The position numbers and the translations under genes were made by a program. A stretch of DNA of 23,170 bases from positions 1 through 23,170 of the forward strand of contig DAOVEQ010000001.1 of NCBI GenBank assembly GCA_030668905.1. Direction: 5' to 3'. Under the pieces are notes generated by a model. That model was not told the origin of the DNA. It saw only the letters and a program-made list of their open reading frames with translations, and ran no database searches. Shown piece after piece: positions 4,230 through 6,580 of this stretch. This DNA comes from Thermococci archaeon (GTDB lineage Archaea; Methanobacteriota_B; Thermococci; Methanofastidiosales; B48-G16). The first letter of the stretch is position 1, and each line of letters opens with the position of its first letter.

Positions 4230-4236
4230 TTTTTTT
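4230..4236 (+). terminator. Oligo-T terminator after the transporter gene
   Basis: Seven consecutive T follow directly after the transporter's TAA and precede the tail of the convergent ligase gene. Archaeal RNA polymerase terminates on such U-runs without a required hairpin. Only 5 bases separate the two convergent stops. Confidence 0.5.
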
Positions 4237-5524
4237 ATTCTTCCACAACTCTCTTCGCTTTTCCGGTAGATCTTGGTATATCTCCTATGTTCACTATATC
4301 TACATCTACGGTGAGATTCAAAATCCCGTAGATCTCTTGCTGGATCTTCTTTGCCAGAAGATTTTTGTCTCCTTTAAAGCTAGGGTCCGGCTCTACTCTC
4401 ACCTTTAGCCGAGTCATCACGCCCGATTTGTATTTCACGATCTGATAGTTTTCACTCGTACCTTCTATTTTCATTATCGCTTCTTCTATCTGTTTTGGGA
4501 ATACAATCACCCCTCTCACCTTCATCATGTCATCGGATCTTCCCAGGATTCTCACATGTCTTGGAAGGGTTCTTCCACAGTTACATTCTTCTTCTATTAA
4601 AATAGAAAGATCTTTTGTTCTGAATCGTATTGACGGAAAAGCTTCCTTTGTAAGCGTTGTGAAGACGAGTTCTCCTTTTTCTCCGGGTTCCAGGACTTCA
4701 CCTGTTTTCGGATCAATGATCTCGACATAAAAATGATCGGTGTTTATATGAAGGCCATCATGTTCCTCACACTCTGCGGATACTCCAGGTCCTATGATCT
4801 CTGTAAGACCGTAGTTATCGAAGGCTGAGATACTCCATTTATCCTCTATCTTTTTTCTCATCTCGTTTGACCACGCTTCAGCTCCGCACATTCCTATCTT
4901 GAGTTTGAAATCTCTTTCTATATCGTATCCTTCTTTTTCTGCTACCTCGGCCATATATGCCAGATAGCTCGGGGTACATCCTATGGCAGTCGTCTCGAAG
5001 TCTTTCATTAACTGCAGCTGTCTCAGCGTATTTCCACTGGACATTGGAACTACAAGAGCCCCGATTTTCTGTGCCCCTTTCTCAAATCCGTGAGCCCCTG
5101 TAAATAAACCGTACCCAAAAGAATTCTGGAATCTGTCCTCTTTTCTTACCCCTGCCGTATACATTATTCGAGCCATTACCTCGCTCCACACATCGAGATC
5201 ATTTTTTGTGCACGTCCCGACGACAGGTTTTCCTGTAGTTCCCGAAGAGGCGTGTAACTCTACTACCTCACTCATCGGAACGCATACCAAATCAAAGGGG
5301 TAATATTTCCTCAGTTCGTCTTTTGTCAGGAATGGAACTTTTTTAAGATCATCTAATGTTTTTATATCTCCGGGCTTCAATCCTGCGTCTTTAAACCTCT
5401 TATGGTATACAGCATTATCTTCATAAACTCTTTTTATAACCTCTTTCAATCTCTTTAACTGAAGTTTCTTCAATTCCTCAAGTTTCATTGTCTCTATTTT
5501 CGAATCCCAGTACTTACTTTCCAT
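4235..5524 (-). CDS. paaK: phenylacetate-CoA ligase (PaaK family)
   Basis: This AMP-forming CoA ligase activates phenylacetate or a related aryl acid to its CoA thioester. It has 429 residues, the standard length. Motifs in order: SSGTTGKPVVG (93-103), the ATP phosphate-binding loop; FGYGLFTGAHG; GCTPSYL; MCGAEAW; YGLTEIIGPG (238-247), the adenine/AMP-binding block; FRTKDLS with the ribose-contacting Asp; and RSDDMMKVRGVIVFP leading into the PaaK-type C-terminal domain. The start ATG has a GGAGG site and a TATA box about 40 bases upstream. In archaea such enzymes often serve arylacetate metabolism next to aryl-pyruvate ferredoxin oxidoreductases, but none lies in this window. It converges with the transporter gene. 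The exact acid used is inferred from the family only. Confidence 0.93.
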   Translation of the reverse strand: MESKYWDSKIETMKLEELKKLQLKRLKEVIKRVYEDNAVYHKRFKDAGLKPGDIKTLDDLKKVPFLTKDELRKYYPFDLVCVPMSEVVELHASSGTTGKPVVGTCTKNDLDVWSEVMARIMYTAGVRKEDRFQNSFGYGLFTGAHGFEKGAQKIGALVVPMSSGNTLRQLQLMKDFETTAIGCTPSYLAYMAEVAEKEGYDIERDFKLKIGMCGAEAWSNEMRKKIEDKWSISAFDNYGLTEIIGPGVSAECEEHDGLHINTDHFYVEIIDPKTGEVLEPGEKGELVFTTLTKEAFPSIRFRTKDLSILIEEECNCGRTLPRHVRILGRSDDMMKVRGVIVFPKQIEEAIMKIEGTSENYQIVKYKSGVMTRLKVRVEPDPSFKGDKNLLAKKIQQEIYGILNLTVDVDIVNIGDIPRSTGKAKRVVEE

Positions 5525-5560
5525 GTCAATGCCTCCTATTTATTAAGAATTTGAAGCAAA

Positions 5561-5570
5561 GTTTTTAAAG
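5561..5570. promoter_or_regulatory. Symmetric TATA element between paaK and the candidate RNA gene
   Basis: GTTTTTAAAG reads as a TATA box on both strands. On the minus strand (CTTTAAAAAC) it predicts a paaK transcript starting near 5541, leaving a 17-base leader that contains the GGAGG ribosome site. On the plus strand it predicts a start near 5591, exactly where the candidate structured RNA begins. A second plus-strand TATA-like sequence, TATTTATATT, lies at 5581-5590. Confidence 0.5.
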
Positions 5571-5590
5571 TTTCTTGTCGTATTTATATT

Positions 5591-5775
5591 ACTCTTGGGC
5601 GAGGACTGATTTGATCCGTGATAATCAGAGCAAACCGAGAGTAACACTGTACCACGATCCCGCTGTACGATTGGTGACTACAGAAAAGCGTGGAACAGAA
5701 AAGCCCCACACGAGAGTAGCAGGTTGAGAGAGGGTTCCCTAACTATGATGTTCTGTGTTAGTGTGATGGGCAAAA
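5591..5775 (+). ncRNA. Candidate structured non-coding RNA in the 330-bp gap between paaK and the IPCT gene
   Basis: No credible reading frame covers this gap. Bases 5597-5770 are about 49 percent G+C while flanking intergenic DNA is clearly AT-rich; in AT-rich thermophilic archaea such islands usually mark structured RNAs. A fold can be drawn by eye: an outer stem ACTCT/AGAGT (5591-5595 with 5713-5717) continuing as GGGC/GCCC (5597-5600 with 5703-5706); a hairpin CTGATT/AATCAG starting near 5606; and an eight-step stem GTACCACG/CGTGGAAC with one A-A mismatch (5649-5656 with 5689-5696), capped through an internal loop by CTGTA/TACAG (5663-5667 with 5679-5683). A further hairpin CTAAC/GTTAG spans 5739-5761, followed by a T-rich stretch. 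ACAGAAAAG occurs twice (5680-5688, 5695-5703). I do not recognise the class; it lacks the SRP and RNase P landmarks I know. Ends are approximate. Confidence 0.5.
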
Positions 5776-5793
5776 TTTTATTTGCAGACAAGG

Positions 5794-5801
5794 TATTTAA
5801 A
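5794..5801 (+). promoter_or_regulatory. TATA box of the inositol-phosphate solute operon
   Basis: TATTTAAA sits 57 bases before the IPCT start. The expected transcription start is near 5822, giving a leader of about 32 bases that contains the GAGGATGATC ribosome site. This promoter is separate from, and downstream of, the candidate RNA. Confidence 0.6.
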
Positions 5802-5854
5802 CAAAACTGTCTATGTGTAAATAGCGTTTTTATTACCTCCCAGAGGATGATCGA

Positions 5855-6580
5855 ATGAAAGCTTTAATTATTGCTGCCGGAGGTAGCACAAGGTTAAAAC
5901 CGCTGACGTCCAAATGTCCCAAAACATTGTTGGATGTTGGAGAAAAGAAGATAATAGATTTTATTCTCGATCCTCTCATATATCTCAATCTTGAAATCCT
6001 TATCGTTACTGGATATCATGGAGAAAAAATAAAGAGATATGTAAAAAAGAATTATAATTGGGACATATCTTTTATTCGCAATCCTCAATGGAAAGAAGAA
6101 AATGGTATATCTGTTCTTAAATCTGAAAAATATTTAAAAAATGAGGATAAGTTTTTACTTTTAATGAGCGATCATATATTTAATCCCAGTTTTTTAGACG
6201 ATCTTATAGAAAAAGATCCACAGGAGTGTTATTTATGCGTGGATACGAACGTAAATAATGTTTTTGGATTGAAAGAAGCTACAAAAGTTCATGTAGAAAA
6301 AGACAGGATTTTGGACATAGGTAAAAATATTTCATATTATAACGGTGTAGACTGTGGAATATTCCTGACAACACCATATATCTTTAATGTACTGAAAGAA
6401 AATGTAAATATAGAAAATACTTTAAACAACGCTATGAAAAGACTCTCTACAGAAGAAAACCTCTATGCGTATGATATAACAGGAAATTTCTGGATTGATA
6501 TTGACACAGAGGAGGATTTAAGGGTGTTTTATGAATTCTTCAAAACCTACGGACGGGATAGTCTCCAGACATATAAATAG
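5855..6580 (+). CDS. CTP:inositol-1-phosphate cytidylyltransferase (IPCT), sugar-nucleotidyltransferase fold
   Basis: A soluble 241-residue nucleotidyltransferase. The N-terminus LIIAAGGSTRLKPLT (4-18) followed by CPKTLLDVG is the nucleotide-binding signature of the NTP_transferase family, and LLLMSDHIF holds the metal-binding aspartate. Neighbour evidence narrows the role: the next gene encodes a CDP-alcohol phosphotransferase that overlaps this one by 50 bases, the domain order of the bifunctional IPCT-DIPPS enzymes known from Archaeoglobus and other hyperthermophiles. IPCT makes CDP-inositol from CTP and inositol-1-phosphate, the first committed step toward di-myo-inositol phosphate. The start ATG has a GAGGATGATC ribosome site. 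The C-terminal 11 residues (TYGRDSLQTYK) lie beyond an AAAA run (6542-6545); dropping one A would fuse the frame to the next gene. The substrate is inferred from this pairing. Confidence 0.82.
   Translation: MKALIIAAGGSTRLKPLTSKCPKTLLDVGEKKIIDFILDPLIYLNLEILIVTGYHGEKIKRYVKKNYNWDISFIRNPQWKEENGISVLKSEKYLKNEDKFLLLMSDHIFNPSFLDDLIEKDPQECYLCVDTNVNNVFGLKEATKVHVEKDRILDIGKNISYYNGVDCGIFLTTPYIFNVLKENVNIENTLNNAMKRLSTEENLYAYDITGNFWIDIDTEEDLRVFYEFFKTYGRDSLQTYK

Follow-up and report, generated by a model that had tools for sequence, protein, structure and literature searches.

The window analysed here, a stretch of 23,170 nucleotides from a Thermococci archaeon of the order Methanofastidiosales, carries in an intergenic gap a structured RNA gene that is a divergent member of the known HgcG/Pab40 family and not a new class. 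We consider it highly probable that this segment is the gene of an H/ACA guide sRNA, an orthologue of HgcG/Pab40/Pf7, with its own TATA promoter and with hairpins 1 and 3 guiding, respectively, the homologue of Pyrococcus abyssi 23S rRNA U2588 and helix 69 (Table 1). Three stem-pocket-stem hairpins stand in a row; each contains a K-loop or a K-turn, and an ANA box follows each of them. In the assembled particle, the K-loop or K-turn of each hairpin would be the binding site of L7Ae and the ANA box that of Cbf5-Nop10-Gar1, the pocket would base-pair with rRNA on either side of a single uridine, and Cbf5 would convert that residue into pseudouridine. Hairpin 1 would direct this catalysis to the U2588 homologue in the peptidyl-transferase region and hairpin 3 to the loop of helix 69 (E. 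coli 1915 region); the remaining hairpin, 2, is presumably a further motif of the same build. Cbf5 is found over cut-off in three of the four genomes of the genus (the congeners G001-G003), and in the window's own assembly (G000, 69.8% complete) the match to this model is weak and partial.

Table 1. Positions of the guide RNA gene and its predicted elements in the window
Feature	Position	Strand	Basis or detail
TATA-like element of the RNA gene, GTTTTTAAAG	5561-5570	+	TTTTTAAA starts at -29 from 5591
Whole HgcG/Pab40-type guide RNA	5591-5774	+	RF00064 match 5535-5780, E 8.2e-17; putative ends
H/ACA hairpin 1 (Pab40.1 homologue)	5591-5646	+	Lower stem 5591-5598/5635-5642 (ACTCTTGG/CCGAGAGT); upper stem 5606-5611/5623-5628 (CTGATT/AATCAG)
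Hairpin 1 guides	GCGAGG 5599-5604, GCAAA 5630-5634	+	Pocket
Hairpin 1 K-loop, TGATCCGTGAT	5612-5622	+	
Hairpin 1 ACA	5644-5646	+	
H/ACA-like hairpin 2	5647-5701	+	Lower stem 5647-5656/5689-5698 (CTGTACCACG/CGTGGAACAG); upper stem 5663-5667/5679-5683 (CTGTA/TACAG); three both-sided pair changes
Hairpin 2 pocket	ATCCCG 5657-5662, AAAAG 5684-5688	+	
Hairpin 2 K-loop	5668-5678	+	
Hairpin 2 ANA box, AAA	5699-5701	+	
H/ACA hairpin 3 (Pab40.3 homologue)	5703-5774	+	Lower stem 5703-5711/5761-5771 (GCCCCACAC/GTGTGATGGGC); helix-69 complementarity; G004 homologue
Hairpin 3 guides	GAGAGTA 5712-5718, GTTA 5757-5760	+	Pocket
Hairpin 3 K-turn G-A letters	5726-5727/5747-5748	+	
Hairpin 3 ANA box, AAA	5772-5774	+	

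The gap comprises 330 bases between a minus-strand ORF at 4235-5524, which we take to be paaK-like, and a plus-strand ORF at 5855-6580, presumably IPCT-like (both labels follow the original prediction), and the program-made ORF list holds no frame of at least 80 amino acids within it. The G+C content reaches 48.1% in 5591-5775, against 24.6% in 5526-5590, 32.9% in 5776-5854 and 38.1% in the window, where equal or higher values occur in 2.2% of all 185-base stretches. The original prediction had described a gene-free gap of 330 bp, a rise in G+C to about 49% and a TATA element at 5561-5570, and was accurate on all of these. TATA-like words begin at -27 to -30 in all six loci checked (window, G002, G003, G004, P. 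abyssi and the Thermococcales locus L005). The original prediction had also placed the beginning of the structured RNA at the first stem base, which is supported by P. abyssi: the Pab40 transcript begins there at 382,389 (PMC4652768), the same base at which our hairpin-1 model, R1, starts in that genome, and its equivalent in the window is 5591, from which the RNA would be transcribed by its own promoter. A second TATA-like word, GGTATTTAAAC, lies at 5792-5802, between the RNA and the downstream gene, and is not kept in G003.

An E-value Rfam scan of 5520-5860 returned one strong match, to the H/ACA box family RF00064 (HgcG, Pab40) at 62.7 bits and E 8.2e-17, the next match having an E-value of 2.7. 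The default Rfam scan of the window was empty because this score lies under the curated cut-off, a gathering score of 77 bits that is a curation threshold and no biological feature; the default tRNA scan of the window and a search of the plasmid collection gave no match. The congeners G002 and G003 score 64.2 and 62.7 bits with the HgcG model (E 5.9e-16 and 1.7e-15). This covariance search had been proposed together with the suggestion of a new, faintly H/ACA-like structured RNA; the novelty was not borne out in view of the RF00064 match and of the published guide-target relations, and the H/ACA likeness proved correct, the ACA of hairpin 1 lying in box position.

The HgcG score alone is no proof of HgcG, since two HgcE RNAs reach 39-43 bits with the same model. 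Weaker second HgcG hits occur in Thermococcaceae-type genomes (L044, L045), and both of those examined score higher as HgcE (Pab105), indicating that the HgcG model cross-hits HgcE. HgcE and HgcF (Pab35) are, like the window RNA, archaeal multi-hairpin H/ACA guides (PMC4652768), but neither matches the segment at E 10 in the E-value scan. It could be argued from this cross-scoring, and from a hairpin 2 unlike Pab40.2 in sequence and size, that the RNA belongs to a different, new family of H/ACA guides that resembles HgcG through general archaeal H/ACA likeness. We regard this as very unlikely, considering the 62.7 bits to HgcG without any HgcE or HgcF match, the GCGAGG guide held in common with Thermococcales RNAs, and the two published Pab40 targets, whose matches follow the expected order along the RNA.

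Regarding the fold, the segment had been predicted to be foldable into a closed outer stem (ACTCT+GGGC with GCCC+AGAGT) enclosing two hairpins. The foldability stood, as just 8 of 200 shuffles fold as well as 5588-5780 (z -2.13), but the layout drawn with an enclosing stem did not, three consecutive hairpins being found instead. The outer stem showed no covariation in two congeners, with one of nine pairs broken in G003, and it was rejected: ACTCTTGG pairs instead with CCGAGAGT at 5635-5642, where two of eight pairs are changed on both sides. Folded separately, hairpins 1, 2 and 3 gave z values of -2.85, -2.77 and -1.07, with 3, 1 and 25 of 200 shuffles as good, so that hairpin 3 alone is not above chance by energy.

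The homologue and covariation check recommended along with the prediction was carried out, and compensatory changes support the conserved stems of hairpins 1 and 2. In the genus alignment of three species (A3: window, G002 and G003), 97.8% of 135 cells are paired and 5 of 45 pairs, two of them in hairpin 1 and three in hairpin 2, are changed on both sides; slid controls gave 0 or 1, and the value of 5/45 was reached by 3 of 500 shuffles. When hairpin 1 was compared across six sequences from two orders (A5), 9 of 14 pairs were changed on both sides and 97.6% of 82 cells were paired, either value being reached by 0 of 500 shuffles. A5 consists of three congeners and 3 of 22 Thermococcales loci, these 22 being the ones among 30 that passed the extraction pattern (8 did not), and it left out the two- and three-base spacer types (P. 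abyssi, G004), which therefore served as held-out tests of R1. The measure of further pair types was not above shuffles in the genus and two-order tests (334/500 and 477/500). Hairpin 3 has within the genus one-sided, pair-keeping changes and no both-sided change; a cross-order MAFFT alignment of this hairpin (A2) was misaligned and was excluded from every count. By hand count, the ANA boxes lie 14, 15 and 15 bases from the pocket-closing layer in hairpins 1-3, in agreement with the H/ACA rule of 14-15 bases, which further describes a stack of ten layers between the pocket and the G-A pairs in the K-turn or K-loop (PMC4652768). Counted likewise, hairpin 1 has ten layers, including A-A and U-U mismatches in its upper stem, hairpin 3 has ten if one bulge is stacked, and hairpin 2 has eight, a kind tied to non-productive folds in the same source.

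For the target search, P. abyssi 23S numbering was anchored on nine published positions, which are named in two papers and all correspond to U with a single offset of 26. In the energy scan of this rRNA, the best site of P. abyssi hairpin 1 is 2614, equal to the published 2588, and that of its hairpin 3 is 2042, equal to the published 2016; U2588 is a published 23S target of Pab40 (PMC6138745, PMC4652768). Hairpin 1 of the window has the geometry of Pab40.1, with 14 bases between the upper-stem closing layer and ACA, and the same 5' guide. Its best site is the U2588-homologous U, cuugc[U]accucgcugucgg, with 4 + 7 pairs, in P. abyssi and in all six order-level 23S sequences scanned (G015, G007, G018, G011, G006 and G009; the domain V sequences L054 and L055, of G016 and G013, were left out). 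The 23S sequence of G003 reaches just past helix 69, so that within the order the site was read in other families. Complementarity scans included the flanks of the rRNA loci, and energy and shuffle scans were run without flanks save for 93 bases after the broken G003 23S. The hairpin-1 duplex amounts to -12.9 kcal/mol in G015, G007 and P. abyssi, with the next site at -0.3 or weaker. Shuffled guides reach -12.9 anywhere in 9 and 3 of 1000 trials, and chance becomes much less likely because the best site is also the published Pab40 target. Judged by this complementarity, hairpin 1 would guide the homologue of P. abyssi U2588.

Helix 69 reads GGGAGUAACUAUAACUCUCUU in all seven members of the order compared (G003, G015, G007, G018, G011, G006 and G009) and GGGGGUAACUAUAACCCUCUU in P. 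abyssi; the GAGAG guide of the window fits the former and the P. abyssi guide the latter, so that the guides differ where helix 69 differs. Matched 5'-guide duplexes reach -9.0 and -7.6 kcal/mol, against -4.6 for each swapped combination, and 16 of 5000 shuffles of the window guide pair as well. That guide and rRNA target vary together speaks well for assigning this hairpin to helix 69. The hairpin-3 guides match both sides of the helix-69 loop, yet not in strict register: the best duplex in the window's genus is GAGAGU:ACUCUC, and a strict-register scan of the window hairpin did not find helix 69. Relative to G004, of another family (f2) of the order, the 5' guide lacks one U in all three congeners (GAGAGUA versus GGGAGUUA), the G004 guide standing in strict register with the U in helix 69 of G007, with nine pairs plus four by the 3' guide. 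With this U missing, either a target A would bulge or the four bases U1915-A-U1917-A would stay unpaired, and a third unpaired residue is described as unfavourable (PMC4652768). Its loss may move the target within helix 69 from U1915 towards U1917. By descent and complementarity hairpin 3 is a putative helix-69 guide. In Haloferax volcanii, HP2, described as the homologue of Pf7 stem III, was proposed to serve both Psi1915 and Psi1917 via alternative structures (PMC2584109); HP1 and HP2 are two hairpins far apart. In the apical part of hairpin 3 (5726-5748; L078, L079), AGGATTCCCG and AATGAT words are common to the window's family f1 (G003) and to f2, beyond H/ACA needs.

Hairpin 2 is real by covariation. 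Scans with the window and G003 guides under three closing choices, considering contiguous pairing only, gave no convincing rRNA target in G003 16S, partial G003 23S, or G015 and G007 23S. The best values were -4.5 kcal/mol (G003 guide, 16S site 622) and -4.0 (window guide, G007 site 2268), both sites having positive energy with the other species' guide. The site guaacuu[U]gggag (1818 in G003, 1808 in G015) is common to both guides at only +0.5 to -1.8, and the L1932-equivalent region, the target of the middle motif in HgcG/Pab40 and covered by the partial G003 23S, is not among the sites listed for G003 hairpin 2 under contiguous pairing. In the window this hairpin carries A-A and C-C mismatches, which, together with the U missing from hairpin 3, could be taken to mark a decayed, non-functional HgcG copy; such decay is extremely improbable, since across three species the stem pairs vary with compensation and every guide letter in hairpins 1 and 3 stays the same.

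The window RNA agrees with HgcG/Pab40/Pf7 of Thermococcales in motif order, hairpin-1 guide GCGAGG, U2588-type target, 14-base spacing to ACA, a putative helix-69 guide in hairpin 3 and RNA start at hairpin 1. It differs from Pab40 in being shorter, in its score below the family cut-off, in its hairpin-3 guide (GAGAGUA versus GGGUUA), in the AAA boxes of hairpins 2 and 3, and in its compact hairpin 2, unlike the long Pab40.2 stretch of P. abyssi in sequence and size. The f2 RNAs of G004 and G007 share hairpins 1 and 3 with their targets; however, they have no hairpin 2, hairpin 3 following directly after hairpin 1, and their hairpin-3 guide is in strict register. Hairpin 2 looks like the variable cassette of the family.

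Concerning distribution, BLAST detected the RNA in G002 (96% identity) and G003 (85%), where it precedes the same gene as in the window; the third congener, G001 (89% complete), has neither the RNA nor a close IPCT. RF00064 matched 91 of the 115 genomes searched in the class, 88 of them over cut-off, and 0 of 14 controls, although in the window's order this search recovered only G000, G003 and G004 of 21 genomes, G002 being missed by stricter filters and matched in a separate scan. At E 0.01, R1 recovered 94 of the 115 genomes in the phylum, among them G004, G007 and G023, which had no part in its building, the last taken to be P. abyssi from its HgcG match at 382,332-604, the coordinates given for Pab40 (PMC4652768). 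Within the 21 genomes of the order, R1 matched five at E 3e-7 or better (G000, G002, G003, G004 and G007); matches in G008, G014 and G013 (E 0.045 to 1.7) were taken as chance, and no other match appeared at E 5. Families f3 and f4 gave nothing better than E 0.045, although the f4 sequences read retain the hairpin-1 target site. G007 has equal hairpin-1 hits at two contig ends (C29:2-59 and C49:41054-41111), probably one gene split by assembly. In the window, G002 and G003 the RNA precedes the IPCT-like gene and shares its strand; that it might act in cis, as a leader or riboswitch of this gene, is barely credible given that the G004 homologues, like those of Thermococcales (L005), lie elsewhere by flanking sequence, that a second TATA-like word separates RNA and gene, and that the guides match rRNA. 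As a side observation, mcrA was detected in one genome each of f4 and f3 (G015, G005) and in none of the five f1/f2 genomes searched (G000-G004, some assemblies incomplete), so that the window's family may be non-methanogenic.

HgcG is listed among the expressed ncRNAs of Thermococcus onnurineus (PMC5316973), and among the matches listed in the open-licence literature on HgcG, Pab40, Pf7 and Methanofastidiosa no account of the RNA in this order was found. The guide is here extended from Thermococcaceae-type genomes to another order of the same class, in which default annotation misses it. More speculatively, and with the odds against it, HgcG could be modular, with lineages exchanging its cassettes; hairpin 2 of this genus would then be a new cassette, and hairpin 3, shifted by one base with U1915-A-U1917-A unpaired, would use a single pocket to modify either U1917 or both uridines of helix 69. 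With its variable hairpin 2 and the shifted register of hairpin 3, the RNA offers a small natural experiment on the tolerance of the H/ACA pocket.
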